This document shows, one piece after another, positions 15,387-53,653 of a DNA stretch of 64,000 nucleotides. The translations under genes were made by a program, and so were the position numbers. Below the pieces are notes generated by a model, which saw nothing but the letters and a program-made list of their open reading frames with translations, was not told the DNA's origin and made no database searches. Every line of letters starts with the position of its first letter. Position 1 is the stretch's first letter. This DNA comes from Syncephalis plumigaleata (taxonomy: Eukaryota; Zoopagomycota; Zoopagomycetes; Zoopagales; Piptocephalidaceae), in contig JAIXMF010000001.1 in assembly GCA_025201365.1 (NCBI GenBank), forward strand, positions 1,364,001-1,428,000, read 5' to 3'.

Positions 15387-15697
15387 GCTTTACATTAATA
15401 TACACAAATTTTAAATAATGATTAGCCTAGCTCTATCTGAAATGCAATTTGTTAGTAGATACATGTAATTATGCTAGTCATTGATACACGCTATTAGTAA
15501 TAGATACTGATTATTTACTGATACTACAAAATACGAACTACGGTATAATATTAATATGCATACAAGAAAAGATTACAAATGTATACAAGGTTGATGATGG
15601 TTGATGAATGGTGGATGAGGCGACAACACAATATAAATACTGTTTCTAATTACTAAATGATTGTCACAACAATCTACGATAGCTAGCCCGTTTCTTA

Positions 15698-18175
15698 TTA
15701 TAACAAGAATTGGTCCCGCTTTATATGATTGTTGTGGTTGCCTATATCGTAATAGAATAAAGTATCCATATTGCTGAAAGCAAGTCTGCATTCCTTGATC
15801 AATGTAGTCGACAGTTGTGCCACTACTAAAATGCTAGCCCGTCCCTCACAATGGTGAGAGCCAGTCTTGCGAATAACAGAGACAAGTATACATTGATGCT
15901 GATGACAGTCCTGTGATTGGAGTAAGGTTTAAAGGAATGGCTAATGGAACAGGAATGAGCACATGAACTAGAGTCATAGATTGCAGCATACTTACATTAA
16001 CCAGGTTGGATTTGAGCATGTCCATCGGCATGGTCTCGCCAAATCGACGCATGCCAGCTGCAGCAATGATACGACGCGACATGGGCGACATGAATGAATC
16101 GGATCCATGAACGATCGTTTGTGAGGTGGTGGACGACGACTGTTCTTGCGACTCTGTAGCATTCTTCGTAGACTCGATGGCATTGGATGGCGATGAACAG
16201 CGTCGAGTAGAAGGTGGTGTGTGTGGTGCACTGCTATGACAAGCACCGATGTGATTCACTGCTGACTCGCTCAAGGAACGCTCAGCATAACGAGACTTGT
16301 AGATGCCACCATTGGTATGCACAGAGACACGAGTGCGTTTTCGCATCACTGCTCATTCAGTCCCAGTTGAGGTGAGCTTAATCGTCGTGTATCTCGTCGT
16401 TGTCGTTGTTGCGGTGATGCTGATGCTGATAGGAATACATCATCGTCACTGTCATTGGATGTTGATGGATTTGGCATGGTGTGCGAGCGAGTTGCTAATG
16501 GCAGCACCTTACGCTTCAAGAACGAACAAGACTGAGTATTGTCCTCGATGCCGCTACGCTTACGCTTGATGCTGGGTGGACGGCAGAAACCATCGGCATC
16601 CTTTTTCGTTGTCGATTCAGATGTGGCTGAGCAGAACAGTGATGGTGTAGAGCGGAATGCGGTCTTTTGCAATGAACTGGCTAATGAGGAAGTAGTCGTA
16701 GTAGTAGTAGTAGTAGTGTCGTGTTCTCCTTCTTTAGCCGTTCCTTCATTGATTGATGCTGCTTTACTCTTGATGAAGTAATTCTCGATGTTATAGGTCG
16801 GTGATATCTAATAGAACTATGATTAATAACTAGCTGTGACAATAGCATGAAGAAGAAGAGTATTAATACATACCTTACTACTATCATTCGAGCTATTCCC
16901 ATTTCGTTTACGTTTTGATATGGGTGCTGGTGCCTTGAACGTTTCTTTGCAGGTACATTTGACTTGTTGGCCAATGAAGCATGCTTAGATGTGGATGATG
17001 ATGTCGATGTCGCTTTGGCACTAGTTGGTGGGGGAGTCTTGTTTGATACCAATGCATTAGTGACAGATTGCTTCTTGGTATTATTGGCAAGTGCGAGTGG
17101 TGACAATGGTGTACGAGGATTCGACATCATATTGCTCTTCTTATTAGAGAAGGACAGGAGTTTAGACTTGCTAGATGTCGATGTCTTTGTGCACTCATCA
17201 TTGGCAATCCATAGTGCAGATGCATTCGCTGAATGTTGCAATGCAGGTTTGGCGATGATGGAATTTGAACATTTGATGTCGTATTACCGATATCAGGAGA
17301 TGGTAATGTGCATCGGATAGGAGACAATGCTTTGTTGGTCTGTTCCTCATTGCTGATAGAAGAAGGAGAAGGAGAGGGTTCGTTATTTGCTGGCTTCTTA
17401 CTATCTTGTTGCATAGCAATAATAGGAGATGCTCAGTGAAGAATGGCAATTCAAGCAGATCTAATGACTCTTGTGTCTTCATAGTGGGTGAAGATACGAG
17501 TAGAGGACTTGATGAAGTTGCATCGACAGCCTGCTCCTTGCTCATCTGTTCCTTAGCATTGGATGATGTCTCATCGAATGGCCACATCAGCATGCCAGGA
17601 CTTGATGATGATGATGATGATGATGATGTGATGCAAGTATTGTTGAAGACAGGAGAGGTCAGCTGATCAATGATCGCATCATCAGCAGACAGCCGCTTCT
17701 TATTGCTCTTGGTTGGTGTGCAGAAAGCAGATGGTAGTTTGGGTGATGTTGATTGTCGCTGCGCTGCTGGTGTCAATGGCATTGATGTAGAAGAGAATGG
17801 AGGAGGCAGCTCGACAATGTTGTCCGCTTGACCATCGATGGACGTGTCGGCAGTTGCAATGGGAGTAGAGGAGTCGATTGATGCTTGCATGGCTAGCACG
17901 TCATCATGAGCAGGTGTCTTGATGGTATGAGACAATGTGCATGACTGCTTGATCGACTGTTGTGTTGGAGTAGATGATGATGATTTCATCGCGGTGGGCA
18001 GACTAGCCACACCATCCTTTAATGTTTGTAGCGTGTGTCTCATGGCTGTCACCGGCTTCTTCTTGAGTATGCTCATTGTCGACAAGAGCGAGATCTTGAA
18101 TCGCATACGACGAGTTGGAGCCAGACACGGCTCGCGTTGTCGTTGCGACAGCTTCTTTTGTTGCCAGGAAAACAT
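15698..18175 (-). CDS. SP/TP-rich basic protein of unknown function, copy A (frame-broken as sequenced)
   Basis: It starts MFSWQQKKLSQRQREPC at 18175. The protein is rich in Ser, Thr and Pro, with many SP/TP sites and basic patches (PISKRKRNG, SIKRKRSG, MRKRTRVSVH), suggesting a nuclear CDK-regulated protein. An intron near 16801-16872 joins NSSNDSSK to ISPTYNIENYFIKSK. The C-terminal part has RRIIAAAGMRRFGETMPMDM, then an intron after SNLVN and a last exon containing VVAQLSTTLIKECR and the stop at 15698-15700. Compared with copy B this copy has frameshifts, for example a missing base near 17432 and another near 16348, at places where copy B is intact. The two copies carry complementary indels, so either both are decaying or short-read polishing failed in the duplicate. 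I do not recognise the family. Confidence 0.6.
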
Positions 18176-19130
18176 GGTCTAGTGCGGAGTGGTTGTACTA
18201 AATGACTGGTGAATACTGCTGAACCACAAGGTGCGGCAATAATACAGAGCAGAGGATAATCATGCATCATATCAGTAAATACACACACACTTGACGATAC
18301 GCTTTCAAATCACAGACAGGCTTGTCACTTACATTGAATATGGCAATACGAGCATAATACGAGTATGCTCGACAAGTAGTAATAAAGAGGGAATGTAGTA
18401 ATAGACTAAAGCTCTAGAGTGTGTTCGGAAACTGAACCAGAATAGCGCTGGATCAAAACAATAACAAACAGTCGAGTGGCTAGTTTGCTATTGCTCACAG
18501 CGTAAGCCGTATATTAAAGCGAACAGACAAGCTTGCTATATGCTTTGGAATAATTAGAATAAATAGATCAGATACAACTTTCTGATGTGCAACGATAATA
18601 GCATACAGTAAACAAAACACAAGAAAGAATGAAAGAAAGTGAGTGAGTGAGTGAGTGAATGGGGAAGGACAGCCAAATACACAGTTATACCAGACTGATC
18701 ATTCATTAACTATAATCTGCTTCCGCATCATTGTTTTCTAGATGCCACCATCTGCTACATGTCAATAGAGTTTCTAAGCATACATGCACTTGTATGCTGC
18801 GATAGATACGGCATACACGTCATGCTGCATCTCTAAATATGCTGTTGGATAATACGCGTCGACGGTGTTTCAAGATGTAAACAAATAATGTCACGTGATA
18901 TATGCATATCCACTCGAGACATAATGATGATTCATTCATAGCAGACTAGCATATCAGGAATAAAGAGATGGCTTCATTCTAACAAGTGTCGAGATAATAG
19001 AATGATTACCATTTAGAATGGAGATTAGTGCATATTGTCCGGATGTTGTCTCTTGTATTAGCAATGAATAAAATGGAAATAATATGTGATCAATATTGTT
19101 AACATTTGAACCAGTACTTGCACATTATTT
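18176..19130. other. Upstream region of copy-A SP/TP gene
   Basis: Non-coding stretch between the terminal exon of the array gene and the SP/TP-rich gene. It contains a GAGT/GAAA simple repeat near 18625-18658 and is conserved in copy B only because of the recent duplication. Nothing else is recognised. Confidence 0.4.
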
Positions 19131-20608
19131 CTAAAGTAGAAGGAAGCAATGGCTATAATGCTTAGAATACGACATATATTTATTCAATAAATGACTGAAT
19201 GATCTTGTAGATATACTTGTTGTTGTTGTACCAAGGAATAATGACTTGAATGGCATGGACACTAAATGAGGATCTTGCACCAATACATTCTTGACTTGAA
19301 TACCTATAATATCTACTTGATGATGTCCTTGTCTTGTTCTTTAATCATGATGGATTAGTATGAGTATAATTATTGTGGATTATTACCTACCGCTTAATTC
19401 TATCGTCCAGATGATGTAGATTGTAGTGTGATTAGCGTATCGTAGATGACGATTGAAGTAATGACTTACACCCTATCATGCAGGAACATATGTGGATCAT
19501 GTGCCGTATTAGTATTAGTGCGTCATAAATTACGGTCAGAATGATTACTTACATCCTATCATACAGGAACATATGTCATATTATTATTAGTGTATCATCA
19601 TTTACGGTCAGAATGGTATCTTACCTCCTATCGTATACAAACATCCGTGGATCATGCGTCATACTGTGATTAGTACTCGTTCATTACGGCCAGAATGGTA
19701 ACTTACACCCTATCGTATACAAACATGCGTGGATCATATGTCATATTAGTATTAGTGCGTCATAAATTACGGTCAGAATGTTAACTTACAACCTATCATA
19801 CAGAAACATAGGATCATACGCCACGTTGTAATTAGTACCCCATTCATTATGGTCAGAATAGTAACTTACACCCTATGTATACAAACATACGTGGATCGTG
19901 CATCATACTGTGATTAGTACTCGTTCATTACGGCCAGAATGGTAACTTACACCCTATCGTATACAAACATACGCGGACCATGCGTCATACTGTGATTAGT
20001 ACTCGTTCATTACGGCCAGAATGGTAACTTACATCCTATCATACAGGAGCAGACATGGATCATATGTCATATTAGTATTAGTGTGTCATAGACTACGATT
20101 GGAATGGAAACTTACAAGCTGTTATACAGAAACGTATAGATTGTGGGAGATATTGTGGTTATTACACTCATTCATTACAATCAGATGGTAACTTACACTC
20201 TATCATACAGGAATATATGTCATATTATTATTAGTGCGTCATAAATTACAGCCATAACGATAACTTACTCCAACTTATAAAACGCATTCACACATGATTT
20301 TGATTTATGTTACGATTAGATAGTACTTGCTATGGTTAATAGGATAGCTTACGAAGTTGTGCTAACAAATTAATAGGCGAAATAAACATTACAATGTGAT
20401 TAGCACGTCAAAACAACCATTAATACACATAACTTACGACTATGGTAATCATCGGTGGACAATGAAACAATAGGCTACGATTAGTACATCAATTGATAGG
20501 GTCACGGCCAGACATACCACGACGACCAAGACGGGACTAGCTTCAACGGAACCAGACTGGCGAGGCGACAACGGCGACGGCAATAGCGAGAACGGCAGAG
20601 AACTTCAT
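19131..20608 (-). CDS. Micro-exon array gene A, secretion-signal-like start (frame-broken in exon 1 as sequenced)
   Basis: The start ATG (20606-20608) opens MKFSAVLAIAVAVVAS, a textbook signal-peptide core, downstream of a TATA box. Exon 1 (20518-20608) ends at GTATGT. Internal exons then follow on the minus strand, each between ...TAG and GTAAGT: lengths 2, 9, 5, then ten of exactly 3 nt (AGT, CTT, GAT, GGT, GGT, GTT, GGT, GAG, GAT, GGT), then 2 (or 9). The terminal exon runs 19131-19338. In one frame these give ...CPQLLGSLDGGVGEDG joined to RTRQGHHQVDIIG and on to a stop at 19131. That frame differs from the ATG frame by one base: the ATG frame meets TGA within exon 1. A single missing base after codon 15 would reconcile them, so this is a broken gene or a sequencing error. 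Exon calls are inferred from splice motifs only. Confidence 0.5.
19381..20460 (-). repeat. Short tandem array of intron plus 3-nt exon units (array A)
   Basis: About 13 units of roughly 80 bp. On the minus strand each unit reads GTAAGTTACCATT ... ACTAAT ... GTATACGATAG followed by 3 nt and the next GTAAGT. Neighbouring units between 19440 and 20040 are close copies of one another, so amplification was recent there. Units toward 20300-20460 are more diverged. Confidence 0.85.
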
Positions 20609-43359: not shown

Positions 43360-43759
43360 ATCTATGTAGTAACTGCGCCATTCTATCACTGATATTACTA
43401 CAGAGATTGGTTATTTAACAAGTCGTCCTATTTATTGAACTTACTAAGTAAATATAGTAAATTTGATGTTGCTTAGCTTGTAATTAGCGTATAATCTTGC
43501 TGTTTGGAATGCAATTTGTTAGTAGATACATGTAATTATGCTAGTCATTGATACACGCTATTAGTAATAGTACTATTATTTACTGATACTACAAAATACG
43601 AAGTACGGTATAACATTAATATGCATACAAGAAAAGATTACAAATGTATACAAGGTTGATGATGATGGTGGATGGTGGATGGTGGACAACACAATATAAA
43701 TACTGTTCTAATTACTAAATGATTGCCACAGCAATCTATGATAGCTAGCCCGTTTCTTA

Positions 43760-46189
43760 TTATAACAAGAATTGGTCCCGCTTTGTATGATTGGTGTCTA
43801 TATCGTAATAGAATAAGTATCCATATTGTTGGAGGCATGTCTGCATTCCTTGATCAATGTAGTCGACAGTTGTGCCACTACTAAAATGCTAGCCCGTCCC
43901 TCACAATGGTGAGAGCCAGTCCGCGAATAACAGAGACAAGTATACATTGATCCTGATGACAGTCCTGTGATTGGAGTAGGGTTTAAAGGAATGGCTAATG
44001 GAACAGAAATGAGCACATGAACTAGAATCATAGAATGCATCATACTTACATTAACCAGGTTGGATTTGAGCATGTCCATCGGCATGGTCTCGCCAAATCG
44101 ACGCATGCCAGCTGCAGCAATGATACGACGCGACATGGGCGACATGAATGAATCGGATCCATGAACGATCGTTTGTGAGGTGGTGGACGACGACTGTTCT
44201 TGCGATCGTAGCATCTTCGTAGACTCGATGGCATTGGATGGCGATGAACAGCGTCGAGTAGAAGGTGGTGTGTGTGGTGCACTGCTATGACAAGCACCGA
44301 TGTGATTCACTGCTGACTCGCTCAAGGAACGCTCAGCATAACGAGGCTTGTGGATGCCACCATTGGTATGCACAGAGACACGAGTGCGTTTTCGCATCAC
44401 TTGCTCATTCAGTCCCAGTTGAGGTGAGCTTATCGTCGTGTATCTCGTCGTTGTCGTTGTTGCGGTGATGCTGATACTGATAGGAATACATCATCGTCAC
44501 TGTCATTGGATGTTGATGGATTTGGCATGGTGTGCGAGCGAGTTGCTAATGGCAGCACCTTACGCTTCAAGAACGAACAGGACTGAGTATTGTCCTCGAT
44601 GCCGCTACGCTTACGCTTGATGCTGGGTGGACGGCAGAAACCATCGGCATCCTTTTTGTTGTCGATTCAGATGTGGCTGAGCAGAATAGTGATGGTGTAG
44701 AGCGGAATGCGGTCTTTTGCAATGAATGGCTAATGAGGAAGTAGTAGTGGTAGTCGTGTTCTCCTTCTTAGCCGTTCCTTCATTGATTGATGCTGCTTTA
44801 CTCTTGATGAAGTAATTCTCGATGTTATAGGTCGGTGATATCTAATAGAACTATGATTAATAACTATTGTGACAATATCATGAAGAAGAAGAGTATTAAT
44901 ACATACCTTACTACTATCATTCGAGCTATTCCCATTTCGTTTACGTTTTGATATGGGTGCTGGTGCCTTGAACGTATTCTTTGCAGGTACATTTGACTTG
45001 TTGGCCAATGAAGCATGCTTAATGTGGATGTCGATGTTGATTTGGCACTAGTTGGTGGGGGAGTCTTGCTTGATACCAATGCATTAGTGACAGATTGCTT
45101 CTTGGTATTATTGGCAAGTGCGAGTGGTGACAATGGTGTACGAGGATTTGACATCATATTGCTCTTCTTATTAGAGAAGGACAGGAGTTTAGACTTGCTA
45201 GATGTCGATGTCTTTGTGCACTCATCATTGGCAATCCATAGTGCAGATGCATTCGCTGAATGTTGCAATGCAGGTGTTGGCGATGATGGAATTTGAACAT
45301 TTGATGTCGTATTACCGATATCAGGAGATGGTAATGTGCATCGGATAGGAGACAATGCTTTGTTGGTCTGTTCCTCATTGCTGATAGAAGAAGGAGGAAG
45401 AAGGAGAGGGTTCATTACTTGCTGGCTTTTACTATCTTGCTGCATAGCAATAATAGGAGATGCCTCAGTGAAGAATGGCAATTCAAGCAGATCTAATGTG
45501 GCTTGTGTCTTCATAATGGGTGAAGATACGAGTAGAGGCTGATGAAGTTGCATCGACAGCCTGCTTCTTGCTCATCTGCTCCTTAGCATTGGATGATGTC
45601 TCATCGAATGGCCACATCAGCATGCCAGGACTTGATGATGATGATGATGATGTGATGTAAGCATTGCTGAAGACAGGAGAAGTCAGCTGATAAATGATCG
45701 CATCATCAGCAGATAGCCGCTTCTTATTGCTCTTGGTTGGTGTGCAGAAAGCAGACGTAGTTTGGGTGATGTTGATTGTTGCTGCGCTGTGGTGTCAATG
45801 GCATTGATGAAGAAGAGAATGGAGAGACAGCTCGCAATGTTGTCCGCTTGACCATCGATGACGTGTCGGCAGTTGCAATGGGAGTAGAGGAGTCGATTGA
45901 TGCTTGCATGGCTAGCACGTCATCATGAGCAGGTGTCTTGATGGTATGAGACAATGTGCATGACTGCTTGATCGATTGTTGCGGAGTAGATGATATGATT
46001 TCATCGCGTGGGCAGACTAGCCACACCGTCCTTTAATGTTTGTAGCGTGTGTCGCATGGCTGTCACCGGCTTCTTCTTGAGTATGCTCATTGTCGACAAG
46101 AGCGAGATCTTGAATCGCATACGACGAGTTGGAGCCAGACACGGCTCGCGTTGTCGTTGCGGCAGCTTCTTTTGTTGCCAGGAAAACAT
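43760..46189 (-). pseudogene. SP/TP-rich basic protein of unknown function, copy B (frame-broken)
   Basis: Duplicate of the gene at 15698-18175, starting MFSWQQKKLPQRQREPC at 46189. Several indels break the frame in the first 500 bp of coding sequence (for example near 46010 and 45755), where copy A is open. Later parts (LPFFTEASPIIAMQQDSK and LNEQVMRKRTRVSVHT) are intact here but broken in copy A. A composite of the two copies indicates the ancestral protein had the same SP/TP-rich, basic, probably nuclear character. Function unknown. Not a viral or transposon gene. Confidence 0.6.
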
Positions 46190-47155
46190 GGTCTAGTGCG
46201 GAGTGGTTGTACTAATGACTGGTGAATACTGCTGAACCACAAGGTGCGGCAATAATACAGAGCAGAGGATAATTATGCATCATATCAGTAAACACACACA
46301 CTTGACGATACGCTTTCAAATCACAGGCAGGCTTGTCACTTACATTGAATATGGCAATACAAGCATAATACGAGTATGCTCGACAAGTAGTAATAAAGGA
46401 GGGATTGTAGTAATAGACTAAAGCTCTAGAGTGTGTTCGGAAACTGAACCAGAAAAGCGCTGGATCAAAACAATAACAAATAGTCGAGTGGCTAGTTTGC
46501 TATTGCCACAAGTGTAAGGCACGTATACTAAAGCGAACAGACAAGCTTGGCTATATGCTTTGGAATAATTAGACTAAATAGATCAGATACAACTTTCTGA
46601 TGTGCAACGATAATAGCATACAGTAAACAAAACACAAGAAAGAAAGAAAGTGAGTGAGTGGGGAAGGACAGCCAAATACACAGTTATACCAGACTGATCA
46701 TCATTAACTATAATCTGCTTCCGCATCATTGTTTCCTAGATGCCACTCATCTGCTACATGTCGATAGAGTTCTCTAAGCATACATGCACTTGTATGATGC
46801 AATAGATATGACATACACGTCATGCTGCATCTCTAAATATGCTGTTGGAAATACGCGTCGACGGTGTTTCAAGATGTAAACAAATAGTGTCACGTGATAT
46901 ATGCATATCCACTCGAGACATATGATGATTACATTCATAGCAGACTAGCATATCAGGAATAAAAGGTAGATTCATTCTAACAAGTGTCGAGATAGCTGAA
47001 TGATTGCCATTTAGAATGAGATTAGTACATATTGTCGGATGTTATCTCTTGTATTAGCAATGAATAAATGGAAATAGTATGCGGTCAATATCGTTGACAT
47101 TTGAACCAGTACTTGCACATTATATTAAAGTAGAATGAAGCAATGATTATAATGC
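46190..47155. other. Upstream region of copy-B SP/TP gene
   Basis: Counterpart of 18176-19130. No gene beyond remnants shared by the duplication; an open frame at 47156-47317 is the counterpart of the array-A terminal exon. Confidence 0.4.
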
Positions 47156-47317
47156 TCAGAATAGGACATATTTATTCAATAAATGATTGAATATCTTGTA
47201 GATATACTTGTTGTCCAAGAATAATGACTTGAATGGCATGGACACTAAAGGGTCTTGCACCAATACATTCTTGACTTGATTACCTATAATATCTACTTGA
47301 TGATGTCCTTGTCTTGT

Positions 47318-50300
47318 TCTGTAACCATAATGGATTAGTATGGCATGGTCATTTGAAGTATTACTTACCATTCCTCAAGATGTCTTAACAATTGACGTGT
47401 ATACCATTACAATTAATGCGGCATTTGTTATCGTCATACTGTCCACTTACAAGCTATCATACAATCATACGCATATCGTATTTTACATTGATTGTAATCA
47501 GTGTATAGTCTATGGTAATCGGAAAGATAGCTTACAATCTGATGTATGTCAGCATACATGGATAACATGTCACATTACAATGAGTAATGCGTATACATTG
47601 ATTGACATGCCCACTTACTTCCTATTATTATTATTATTTACAATCCACATGGATCGAGTATCACATTATCATTGAGTGATCATACACTGTCATCGGAAAT
47701 ACTAGCTTACTTGCTATTCGATATCATTGTACCGGATTGCGTATCGCACATCGATTAGTCGTACATCATGCACCATGTCTATGCCTTCTTTTGACTTACA
47801 TCCTGTGTTGTGCCATTGTGAATGAGCCATGTTACATGTTGCAATCAATGAATCATTCATCGTAGTCGAGATGATAGCTTACTTTCTATTGCCCATTATC
47901 GTATATTAGTCAACTCGTATTGCATTTAGCATAGCATAGCTTGTCATCAATCCATTGACTTGCCTCCTGTTGTATGTGATTATGCATGGATTGCATGTCG
48001 TATTGCCATTAGCACATGACCTATCACGATCCATCACTGGCTTGCCTTCTGTTAATCCGGCAATAAGTGAATCGTATGCCACATATCGTCATTAGCATGC
48101 CACATATTGCAAGTAAAAGTGCTCACTTACATGCTGTTATACGTGAGTATACACGATCCATATGGCGTACATTGCAATTAGCACGCCATAGATTGTCATT
48201 AGGAATGCCAACTTGCCTCCTGTCATTCACAATCATATGTGAATTGAATGTCGCAATGTAATTAGCGTATTGCAAATTGTCATTGAAATATCCACTTGCC
48301 CTTTATTCTACGTAATCAAATGTGTGTTGTATGTTGTCTCATGATTAGTGCACCATAGAATGCAACAGCACTATCAACTTACATCCTATCGTATGGAAGT
48401 GTACATGAATCGTGTTCACATTACAATGAGCACATCGTCTATTTTGATCGGAATACTAGTTTACCTTCTGTTCAATAGTTATACGTCAATCATATGACAT
48501 GATGATGTTGTTGTTAGCACGATATACACAGTAACAATACGTCAACTTACTTGCTATCATACGCAATCACATAGACATGGATCGTATCCCGTATTGCAAT
48601 TAGTGGGAAATACGAGCCACTAGAATGGTAGCCTACCTTCTTCTATCATACATGATCATGCATGGATCGTATGCCATACATTGCCATTAGCATGTCGTAT
48701 ACCGGGATAAGAATGCCTGCTTACCTCCTATCACGCATAATCATAGGTGAGTTGTATGTCACATTCCAATCACAATGCCCACTTACAAACTATAGAATGT
48801 GGCCATACATGAATCGTATACCATCATACTGCAATCAATCTACCATACGATAACATTCGAATGCTCACTTACTGCCTATGACACGTAAACATATACGAAT
48901 GAGATATCATACTGCTGTTAGCGACTATACTATTCCAATGAGTAGGTTGACTTTCTTACTATCTATCATCCATGATCATTTGTGAGTGTACACCACGTCA
49001 TTACGATTATTAGTTCATCGTCAAATTGCCATTAGAATGCTAGCTTACGGTCTATGATCCACACATACACACACACATGAATGGTATGGCAAATTACTAT
49101 TAGCTACCATTATCGTATTACAACACGAATGCTGACTTACTCCCTGATGTGCATAATCGTACGTGGATTGTATGCCCCATTTCAGTTAATGTCTCGTATG
49201 GTGTAACAAGAATAATAAACTTACAAACTACCACATACAACCATACGTGGATCATGTGCCATAATGCAATCAGTACACCGCATGCCGTGATTACAATGCC
49301 CACTTACAAGCTGTCATATGTAATCACACGCGAGTTGTTTACCACATTGCAATTAGATCGACGTATCAATGCTAAAAATGCTAACTTACATCCTAGTATT
49401 CATGATCATACGGGAGTTGTATGTCACACTATGATTAACGATTCATGTCTACTAGCTGACACTTTCAGCTTACAAGCTATCATGTGGCCATACGTTAATC
49501 ATTTGTCATATTCCTATTAGTACACCGCAGATTGTAATGGTGACATCAACCTACATGTTGATTCGCCTTCTCCAACTATGCCATACATCAATCATTTGTC
49601 ATACTCCGATTAGTATGCCGTAGATTGTAATCGTGACATCAACTTACACGCTGCTTCTCAGCCTTCAACTATGCCATACAACAATAGATTAGTTTCACAT
49701 GATGCTTGATCAAATCAAACGATAAAACTTACTTCTTCCGGTGTATGATTATACGAGGGCTATACATCTCATTATAATGAGTGCATGATGCATGATCATT
49801 TGGATATAAGCTTACTAGCTATAATAACAATAATACAAGCACATATCCCATTGCAATCAATATAGCGTAGATTGTAATCAGAATGATGACTTACACAGTG
49901 ATACTCAACCCGGATCTAGGACACGCAATAGTGGATTAGCTTCATAAGATGTTTGACCAAATCAAACAATAAACTTACTTCTTCCGGTATATGATTATAC
50001 GAGGGCTATACATCTCATTGTAATGAGTGCATGATACACCATCATTCGGATATCAACTCACCCACTATAATAACGATACAAGTACATATCACACTCTGAT
50101 TAGTATACCGCAGATTGTAATCAAAGTGATGACTTACTTTCTTTCATACACAATCAACGGTCAATAGTGCACCACAATGTAATTAATGTGCTGTGGAAAT
50201 TAGCTGGAATGATGACTTACCCCCTAACAGTTGTAGTTTTATGTGAATCATTCAATGACATTACCATTAGCATGTCACATCTTGTAACCAGCATGTCAGC

Positions 50301-53300
50301 TTACCCACTATCAAATGTAAGTATACATAAGCCATAGGGCATCTTGCAATTAATTCATCCAACACTATCATCGAATAATAACTTACTAACTATCATTCGT
50401 AATCACATATGGGTCGTATTCATTACGATTAACACATCACATCCTGTAGTGATAATGCTAGCTTACTTGCTGTTATATTTGATCATAGATCAATTGCATA
50501 CCAGCTTATAATTAGTTCATCCTATGCTGTAATTACTATTATGACTTACCGCCTGATATGCATAAGTGTAAATGAATTATACACCGATTACAATTAGTTG
50601 ATCGTATGCTGTAATCACCATTTTGGCTTACTTTCTGTTATATGTACTCATAAATGGATTGCACATCGATTTACAATTAGCTCACGGTATGCTGTATCCA
50701 CTATTTCGACCTACCATCTGTTATAGGTGATTATAAATGAATTGTACACCGATTAGGATTAGTTCATCGTATAATACAACCATTATTTTGGCTTACTTCC
50801 TGTTACATACGATCATAGGGGAATTGCACATCAATTTACAATTAGTTCATTGTACGATGTAACTGATATGTAAACGTACTTCCTGTTATATGTGATCATA
50901 GGCGATTCGCACACCGGCTTACAATTAGTTCAGCGTATGATGTAATCACTGTTCTGACCTACCGCCTGATATGCATAAGCGTAAGTAGATTGTACACCGA
51001 TTATGATTAGTTGATTGTACGCTGTGATCATTATGCATTCTTACTTCCCGCTATATGTAAGCATACGTGAATGGTGTATCAATTTAGAATCAGTTGATTG
51101 TATGTTATAATCGTTATTTTGGCTTACTTTCTGACATTTATAAGCACAAGTAATTGCACATTACTTTGCTATTAATTTATGGTATACTATAATCACTATT
51201 TTGGCTTACCCTCTGGCATGCATAGGCACAAATAGTAGCATATCAATTTATAATTAGCTGATTGTATGCCATAATAACAATGCTGACTTACTGCCTGTTA
51301 CAAGTCACCATAAGTGAACGGTGTGTTGATTTACAATTAGTTGATTGTGCGCTGTAGTCACTATGCTAACTTACTCTCTGTTATATGTAATCATAGGCGA
51401 GTTCCACACCAATTACGATCAGCTCATCGTATGAAGCGATCGTTATTTGGCTTACTCTCTGTTATATGTGATCATAAGTCAATGGTATCATAATTTACAA
51501 TTAGTTCATAGTATGCTATAATCACTACTCTTGCTTACTATCTGATGTGCATAAGCGTAAGTGAAGTGCACACCGATTACGATTAGTCCATCGTATAGTG
51601 GGATCGTTATATGACTTACTATCTGTTATATGCAATCATAAGTCGATGGTATGCCGATTTACAATTAGTTCGTCGTATGTTGTAGTTACTATTATGACTT
51701 ACGAGCTGATGTGCATAAGTGTAAATGAAGTGCACCCCAATTTACAATTAGTTGCTTGTACGCTATAATCACCATGCATCCTTACTCTCTGTTATATGTA
51801 AGCATACGTGAATGGTGTGTCAATTTAGAATCAGTTGACTGTATATTGCAAATAGTATGCTAACTTACCGACTGGCATTTATCATTATAGATTTGTTATT
51901 CCACATTAGAATTAGTTCATTGTGTGCTAAAGCCTATACGTTGGCTTACAGGCTATGATTTATAAATGTATATGAATCGTATATTCCACTCCAATTAGCA
52001 CACATTATACGGTAATTATAATGTTGGCTTACTATCTGTTGTACGTGATAGTACGTGGATTGTATTTCTCATTCCAATTAATGTCTCGTATGCTTCAATC
52101 GAAATAATAACTTACGGCCTATTGTATTCCATAGTCATAGGTGAGCTACATTTTGGGATTGTAGACCACATGTTAACTTACACTCTATGTCGTGTGATCA
52201 ACATACACACACGTATATGAATTGTATGTTCATTGTGATTATTGTGATTATTATTGAAATACTAGCTTACATCTTTCTACATGTGTTGTTACAAGTCAAT
52301 CATGTATCATGCTACAATTAGCATATCGTATCCTATAGTCATCATAATGACTTGCCTCCTATTATTCACAATAATAAATAAATACTATGATTAGTATGCC
52401 GTATATTGACACTAGAATGCCAACTTACAATCTATGTCGTGTAATCATCCATCATGAACCATGTCCCTCATTTCGATTAACACATCACACATATCACGAT
52501 AGGAATGTCTAGTTACCCTCTGTTACATGGATGCATACATGAATCGTCAATCAGCTTGTGATTAACCGATCGAACACTGCAATGATCATCACTTACATAC
52601 TATTACTCGTAATCATATGTGAATTGTATGCCATAGGGTAATGAGTACATCAGCTAGTAAGACTGGAATGCTAACTTCTTACAATCTATTATGTATATAC
52701 ATGTATGTGTGTGTGATGCATTGCTATTAACATGTCATGCATTAGTATGGAAATGTCCACTTACATACTAGTGTAATCATATGCAAAGAGAATGATGATG
52801 GTTGTTGTTGTTATTAGTACATTATACAATGATGCTAGACTAGCAACTTACATCCTGTTACAGGTCATCGTACACGTATCATGACATGTCAACTTGTAAT
52901 GAGCACATCATAGACTATGATCGAAATGATCACCTACATGCTGTCAGATGTGTGTGTGTGTGTGTGTGTGGAATGACAAGTGAGGCAATTGTGCCATTGC
53001 AATTAGTATGATGTATACTGCAATCGGAATACCGCCCACTTACAATCTATTACGCGTCATCATCGGTGAATCGAATGCCTCATTCCATCGAGTGTTCGCT
53101 TACCCACTAATGCATGCAATCATACGTGAATCAAATGGCTCATTGCAATGATACTAGTAGCTTACGTGTTCCTATGCATGATAATCATACGGGAATCGAT
53201 TGCCACATTCCAATGAGCGTATGGCATAGTATCATCGTGATTCACAACTCACCTCCTATCATACGAGTATTGCAATTAGTACGTTGTATGTTTATTTAGA

Positions 53301-53653
53301 CAGAATATCAACTTACGTCTGCTTCTAGAACAGTAACATATGATTTTGATATACATTCCAGTCAACACGATAGATGTCATGATCACTTGTTGTTTAACTC
53401 ACCAGCTATGATTGACAGCATCATATGTGGCATCATCATCAGTATCGCAATCCATGCCATACGATATAGACTTACCATCTATTGATTGTCATTAGAAAGA
53501 CCATTAGATAGTAGTATTACGATTAGCATGTTGACTAGTATCGATGATGACGATGATGATAGAAATACCAGGGGAATTTGATGATATGGATGCTGTATCA
53601 TTGACTATAGGCTGGCTATTGTTATTATTATTGTTATCAGCAGATAATTCCAT
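47318..53653 (-). CDS. Micro-exon array gene B: about 77 exons, most of them one codon long
   Basis: ATG at 53651-53653 opens MELSADNNNNNNSQPIVNDT. Exon 1 (53569-53653, 85 nt) ends at GTATTT. About 75 internal exons follow on the minus strand, each framed by ...AG and GTAAGT/GTAAGC (a few GTAGGT, GTGAGT or GCAAGT), separated by introns of 55-100 bp with a CTAAT-like branch site. About 63 are 3 nt, four are 6 nt, and a cluster of 21- and 27-nt exons lies at 49.55-50.01 kb. Only two (each 8 nt) are not multiples of 3. The first three internal exons (3, 3, 8 nt) bring the frame to phase 0, and all later exons up to 48385 are then open. The peptide contains EEHWIHDYIYRIEKD, SRLIIRRARKREAEEMKAQ, LWGKW, PSYNHIPEE, PSYNHTPEE, LKAEKQR, LEKANQH and FEKKQKD. 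The exon at about 48296 shifts phase and the frame then stops at a TGA at the last junction (47369/47318). The total is about 150 aa. It is a helical, charged, unrecognised protein. The 3' end model is least certain. Confidence 0.6.
47363..53475 (-). repeat. Long tandem array of intron plus micro-exon units (array B)
   Basis: About 75 head-to-tail units averaging 81 bp. Minus-strand consensus: GTAAGT, about 25 bp, ACTAATTG or similar, about 35 bp, then TATGATAG or ATATAACAG, then the exon. Units vary widely in sequence and length (about 55-100 bp) while donor, branch-like and acceptor motifs are kept. Local subfamilies exist: acceptors ATATAACAG or ATATCAG at 50.4-51.8 kb, and TATGATAG toward both ends. 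Confidence 0.85.

Follow-up and report, generated by a model that had tools for sequence, protein, structure and literature searches.

A fungal gene family in Syncephalis plumigaleata with predicted tandem arrays of single-codon exons

Results

We describe here a gene on the minus strand of a 64,000-nucleotide (nt) stretch of DNA (‘the window’) from the fungus Syncephalis plumigaleata, a member of the Zoopagales (assembly GCA_025201365.1, contig JAIXMF010000001.1, positions 1,364,001 to 1,428,000). This gene, hereafter the focal gene, is very probably a long member of a multigene family in which the internal exons are mostly single codons, arranged in tandem and spliced into one open frame; the repeating unit would be an intron of about 79 nt plus one codon. 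A preliminary description of the window had proposed a new gene architecture for this locus. That proposal holds, and as the trait of a family rather than of one odd locus: it is upheld most strongly by small exons found already joined in intronless paralogues, by exon lengths that are multiples of three, and by a zone ahead of the acceptors from which AG is excluded.

The family was sought across the 32.6-Mb genome (383 contigs), with the reversed pattern as control. A strict pattern for the repeating unit gave 1709 matches (44 for the control), whilst a conserved early intron was found at 54 places, the signal-peptide ‘head’ (ATGAAGTTCTCTGCC...) at 168 and the terminal exon, or ‘tail’, at 127 (head and tail at three or fewer mismatches), all three with a control count of 0. 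The head and tail totals do not equal numbers of array genes, since there appear to be haplotype duplicates among the contigs and intronless loci among the heads; of the 168 heads, those examined belong to 26 modelled genes, 21 intronless loci and a small number of others. A protein search returned eight relatives, seven of them named as Syncephalis plumigaleata.

In the standard gene, exon 1 is 94 nt long, encodes MKFSAVIAIAVAVVALTSLVAVEA..RR plus one G, and leaves phase 1. It is followed by one 3-nt exon, at least one exon of 9 or 12 nt, and one of 2 or 5 nt; the phase is 1 before this last exon and 0 after it, such that each subsequent 3-nt exon is a whole codon. The 3′ part comprises the run of 3-nt exons, a penultimate exon of 9, 12 or 15 nt in which TAA or TGA lies in frame, and lastly a terminal exon made up of 3′ untranslated region (UTR). 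Variants of this anatomy occur, and one locus (L053) has eleven consecutive 9- or 12-nt exons ahead of its 3-nt exons. Introns are most commonly 80 nt long (median 79), and 367 of 462 fall within 76-84 nt; the most frequent distance from branch point to acceptor is 43 nt. A TATA-like box is present upstream in L010, L012, L063, L064 and L066.

The predicted mature peptides are highly variable (APQLGAVTGLGGKGGK in L010, APDEEQCCKGVMCQC in L050 and AEGPCIKISNRCCYENSDKPGTLFCDDR in L062) and some are cysteine-rich. Fourteen positions, including M K .. VEA .. P .. RR, are invariant in 12 hand-chosen members (7 array, 5 intronless), in which the signal peptide and dibasic site were judged by eye; the RR at the end of the signal peptide we take to be a Kex2-like site.

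With exon length left free, a gene finder whose consensus weights (donor, branch point, acceptor) had been set by hand made 337 of the 445 exons after exon 1 exactly 3 nt long (25 genes), so the parser does not itself dictate this length. Strict units with a 3-nt gap number 851 genome-wide (control 2), as against a single unit with a 4-nt gap (control 6). Within the fetched loci, once overlapping loci and repeated contexts had been removed, 594 of 603 AG-to-GT gaps in a branch-point context had a length divisible by three.

That members of this family are spliced is strongly supported by the sequences themselves. In the same cleaned set (514 units), AG occurs 9 times between branch point and acceptor where 758 would be expected, whereas GA in that zone occurs 816 times against 755 expected; an AG in this position could act as a premature acceptor, and its exclusion supports splicing. 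The spliced exons of 26 genes (the focal gene excluded) were also compared with the 21 intronless loci. One of these, L073, together with its near-copy L074, is identical over 36 nt to the predicted spliced form of L038, a match that crosses seven junctions and spans exons of 3, 3, 6, 3, 3 and 3 nt among others. At the other end of the gene, TAAGCA or TAAGCG, with which the penultimate exon closes, directly abuts the terminal exon in L066, L073, L083 and L084. Whether these intronless copies are processed or ancestral, they indicate that the small exons belong together contiguously.

Several of the intronless members (L063, L064, L066, L072-L089) have open frames of their own together with the family 3′ UTR. 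A tree of 44 rows built from exon 1 and the 3′ UTR (intronless near-copies L074, L086 and L089 omitted) did not tell ancestral from derived intronless members; array and intronless members are mixed in it, with poor support (14 changes, versus 14.3 when shuffled).

Signs of coding are also present. None of the 851 strict units is a stop codon; 145 start with T and 26 are TRR, all 26 being TGG. In the fetched loci, 346 pairs of adjacent units gave 38 and 9 stops when read in the two other frames. The preliminary description had leant on the absence of stops from the array, and stops are indeed avoided, but the argument is weaker than was stated, since CAG is avoided too (0 versus 12 CAA in the 3-nt exons, as compared with 45 to 65 in the window's ordinary open frames; p=0.0036). 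TAG may be avoided as a unit that would create an additional acceptor, and the other two stops as units that would create an additional donor; we have accordingly downgraded stop avoidance as sole proof of translation. The interior of longer exons avoids this confound: in 26 distinct exons of 9-27 nt, stops number 0/62 in frame versus 7/62 and 1/88 in the other two frames. Among the 26 signal-peptide-type models, 14 have their stop in the penultimate exon.

As modelled, the focal gene comprises 76 exons on the minus strand (53653 to 47369), to which the terminal exon adds a 77th (Table 1). Exon lengths are 63 of 3 nt, four of 6, three of 21, two of 8, two of 27, one of 85 and one of 15. YAG-NNN-GT sites listed along the array display the series of 3-nt exons directly, and together with our reading of the sequence bear out the minus-strand series of introns set out in the preliminary description. 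Its count of 63 single-codon exons and its 99-nt opening (85+3+3+8, the 8-nt exon 4 setting phase 0) are exact in our model. Its account of the exons as nearly all of 3 nt needs correcting at 50005-49555, where five have lengths of 21-27 nt; its frame, too, is wrong for the last part, where a conserved 8-nt exon (48307-48300) changes the frame. Joined together, the exons give 148 codons without a stop, then a TGA divided across the last junction. The predicted product, of 148 residues, is charged and ends ..DNKGSIRRKIKKFLHLEE* owing to that frame change. Automatic parses of the gene were not open, some stretches having been left unsplit; our model has eight manually placed exons, each at an AG..GT site, which take the place of two long ‘exons’ and divide one long intron. 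Exons 45-50 encode PSYNHIPEE / IRVEYHC / L / PSYNHTPEE / LKAEKQR / LEKANQH, with the two 27-nt exons uncertain because the corresponding block of a paralogue, L092, was parsed into exons of 6 nt.

Exon 1 of the focal gene occupies the position of the family's signal-peptide exon, yet is without a hydrophobic signal, and an N-terminal signal peptide followed by a dibasic site was not found in the predicted protein. The first donor is weak (GTATTT, versus GTATGT in most parsed family members). The window had no Rfam or tRNA match, and Pfam searches with three predicted proteins gave none above the curated cut-off.

Table 1. Coordinates of the focal gene and of related features in the window
Feature	Position	Strand	Description
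Exon 1 (85 nt)	53569..53653	-	encodes MELSADNNNNNNSQPIVNDTASISSNSP plus one G; phase 1
Exons 2-4 (3, 3, 8 nt)	53317..53478	-	encode DAEAD with the G of exon 1
Exons 5-44	50062..53255	-	37 three-nt and three 6-nt exons; encode EEHWIHDYIYRIEKDSAIPSRLIIRRARKREAEEMKAQLWGKW
Exons 45-50	49555..50005	-	five of 21-27 nt and one of 3 nt; tandem-duplicated block
Exons 51-75	47451..49476	-	23 three-nt exons, one 6-nt, one 8-nt
8-nt exon AATAAAGG	48307-48300	-	second change of frame; conserved in L092 and L093
Penultimate exon (15 nt)	47369..47383	-	final TG plus first A of terminal exon give the TGA stop
Terminal exon	47171..47318	-	family-type 3′ UTR (AACAAGACAAGGACATCATCAAGTAG...) reaching AATAAA at 47176-47171
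Second family member	19313..20608	-	signal-peptide type; ten 3-nt exons in model
Segmental duplicate	43505..47369		94.1% over 3970 aligned positions to 15438-19391

The start of the focal gene (MELSADNNNNNNSQPIVNDTAS) defines a subfamily that lacks a signal peptide, being common to the two long paralogues L092 and L093 and to P0010 and P0011. The latter two, public proteins from other contigs, closely share both this start and DAEADE..WIDYIY, residues which in the focal gene lie mostly on separate exons. In its main blocks L092 is 92-93% identical to the focal gene, and L093 84-86%; L092 also carries some 2 kb of extra sequence in mid-array, possibly a mobile element. Over 44 well-aligned units, splice-site positions have diverged by 1.8% and 3.0% in the two paralogues, versus 6.7% and 7.2% for introns, which also speaks for splicing, and exon length is kept in 44/44 units in each. 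The 25 units nearest to the penultimate exon have 2/83 and 3/83 exon differences, versus 7.0% and 5.8% in introns (p 0.07 and 0.29). An apparent replacement of triplets faster than introns in L093 (27.5% vs 14.6%) was dropped for that paralogue: its middle units are not orthologous, as judged from flanking introns that are mostly 25-50% diverged.

The public model of the focal locus appears to be P0009 (BDF22DRAFT_652225), which contains many of the same codons and skips others. Both it and a second public model, P0002, contain runs of predicted single codons; we rejected them as cDNA evidence, as their irregular exon skipping and non-family ends suggest that they are probably ab initio predictions.

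Arrays differ from one another by whole units. L051 and L060 are 98.2% identical, with one internal gap of 162 nt that amounts to two units and keeps the frame, and between L038 and L039 there is a gap of 83 nt besides some smaller gaps. Adjacent units resemble each other more closely than randomly drawn ones do (0.531 vs 0.439), and the triplets that flank the introns differ from unit to unit.

As to the remainder of the window, the second family member is probably a pseudogene, having a frameshift in exon 1. A segmental duplication adjoins both array genes; one edge coincides with the final nucleotide of the focal gene's penultimate exon (47369), and both copies (15438-19391 and 43505-47369) contain similar serine-rich open frames.

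Discussion

Synthesising these findings, we suggest that each small intron would be removed by intron definition, and that single codons would thereby be joined into one open frame. Splice sites 3 nt apart could hardly be used together, and removal would thus proceed sequentially, one intron after another. An exon of 2, 5 or 8 nt would serve to convert phase 1 to phase 0, and the product, in most examined members, would be a signal peptide ending in RR followed by a short and variable mature peptide. Syncephalis species are described in PMC6784888 as mycoparasites, and the mature peptides are plausibly effectors or toxins directed against host fungi.

A number of observations weigh against this reading, and both splicing and product are, at this point, predictions from DNA. 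The seven-junction match falls in the early, phase-1 part of the gene, no like match for the phase-0 array was seen among the gene/intronless pairs compared, and L073 itself departs from the family frame. Stop avoidance may in part be splice-site interference, given the avoidance of CAG, and a looser pattern applied to the fetched loci yielded one TGA in 524 units (9.3 stops expected from base frequencies), sitting in L036 after a 2-nt exon. Twelve of the 26 models miss the penultimate-exon stop: seven stop earlier (L061 by one exon), and five run on, with no stop before the terminal exon or reading into it, a group in which we count L028, L036 and L055, where no stop was found. Several of the failing models have visible lesions in exon 1, in the 2-nt unit or through a lost acceptor, and others contain unresolved exons. 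For the focal gene, the open frame relies on the hand-set splits, and exon divergence does not fall below that of introns (10/151 vs 206/3060 and 10/151 vs 221/3067 in the 44 aligned units; Fisher p 0.56 and 0.47), so that this test gives no sign of constraint on its codons; indeed, in a wider alignment with L092, exons of 3 to 8 nt differ by 10.0% versus 6.9% for introns.

Exons that diverge as fast as introns may mean that the focal gene is either decaying or diversifying. It could be a pseudogene in decay within a family that is real, a reading fully compatible with what we propose at the level of the family and one that we regard as a genuine, if lesser, prospect. Its missing signal peptide, weak first donor and evenly spread divergence would all fit, and other members of the family bear clear lesions; on the other side stand a 148-codon frame that is open across 76 exons, exon lengths and splice sites conserved in both paralogues, and the sparse exon differences in the last 25 units. 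With the absent signal, the weak donor and the equal divergence, any expression or function of the focal gene is at most putative.

A second alternative concerns origin, and is therefore compatible with the splicing proposed here: a mobile intron, or ‘introner’, might have inserted repeatedly and cut an existing frame into codons. Units are alike across genes and intronless members do exist, but the greater likeness of neighbouring units and the whole-unit differences between relatives point to tandem duplication within arrays; furthermore, among the matches listed, units cluster in arrays that mostly have family heads or tails, and the tree gives no direction from one state to the other. On balance, invasion of this kind seems to us rather unlikely. 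Highly improbable, in our view, is removal of the array as a whole, with exon 1 joined to a distal exon and the repeats, a tandem intronic satellite, never reaching the mRNA, for although single 3-nt exons are hard to recognise, the units are tandem repeats and stop avoidance can partly be splice interference, a non-coding array would have no reason to hold its other gaps at 6, 9, 12 and 15 nt or to balance phase 1 with exons of 2 or 5 nt, and the intronless paralogues have joined small exons, never exon 1 beside the terminal exon.

If the arrays are spliced codon by codon, as we propose, then they would appear to grow and shrink through tandem duplication of an intron plus its codon; with one codon to the unit, duplication or loss would change residues without breaking the frame. 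It is tempting to view the array as a device for evolvability and diversity. Genes would lengthen or shorten in steps of a single residue and, since no 3-nt unit disturbs the frame, one gene could, by leaving out any subset of its exons, encode a combinatorial set of secreted peptides to deploy against host fungi. This extension of the model we offer tentatively, and think it doubtful.

Comparison with known systems, made here by description, sets the family clearly apart from the nearest two, schistosome micro-exon genes and aphid bicycle genes. The micro-exon genes (MEGs) of schistosomes are described as having 10-20 exons of 6-81 bp, most of 15 bp, with introns of 0.1-5 kb (PMC10526429; its abstract gives 3-81 bp). 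Like the family described here, they form secreted, variable multigene families of a parasite with many tiny exons, mostly in multiples of three (594/603 gaps in our case); unlike them, the fungal family has internal exons mostly of one codon, up to 63 per model, parted by repeat introns of about 79 nt, with 3 nt as the commonest exon length and 79 nt as the median intron. Isoforms produced by alternative splicing of the central exons are another mark of MEGs. The bicycle genes of aphids, according to PMC9168663, have unusually small internal exons that are almost all of phase 2, and the megacycle gene has more than 100 microexons and encodes about 2000 amino acids. They too are fast-evolving putative effectors with many microexons largely of one phase, but the Syncephalis genes pass from phase 1 to phase 0, are not of phase 2, and encode precursors of some 40-150 amino acids.

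Introners are reported to scatter into many genes, some families having target-site duplications or inverted repeats (PMC9860276). The present introns resemble introners, introner-like elements and fungal stwintrons in being similar spliceosomal introns that have multiplied, yet they lie in head-to-tail arrays, in the examined genes belong to one family or its subfamily, and have variable codons between them. Very small exons can be spliced elsewhere, fungi included: an isolated 3-bp microexon is described in Drosophila homothorax (PMC7392893), and one in Trichoderma Xlr2, where functional microexons are stated to have been previously undescribed in filamentous fungi and fungal microexons to have been formerly tested only in S. 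pombe (PMC11121469). Those are single exons, however, and the Syncephalis exons form arrays. No report of arrays of one-codon exons was found among the matches listed from the titles and abstract openings of the open-licence literature, where absence is no proof.

Seven further relatives of the signal-peptide exon, P0021-P0023 and P0025-P0028, are metagenomic or environmental, with P0027 from S. pseudoplumigaleata. Some of these relatives read exon 1 into a stretch resembling intron 1, a sign that other species may share the gene structure; and, as the public models examined here scramble such genes, similar families could lie hidden in other early-diverging fungi.

Finally, single-codon exons are considered to lie at the lower limit of splicing, and here they would occur by the dozen in a row, in many genes. 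The family would allow a direct test of how the spliceosome joins sites that are 3 nt apart, namely of sequential and recursive-like removal through intron definition. It may also represent a new route of protein evolution, in which single residues are inserted or deleted through tandem duplication of an intron and its codon, without a shift of frame.

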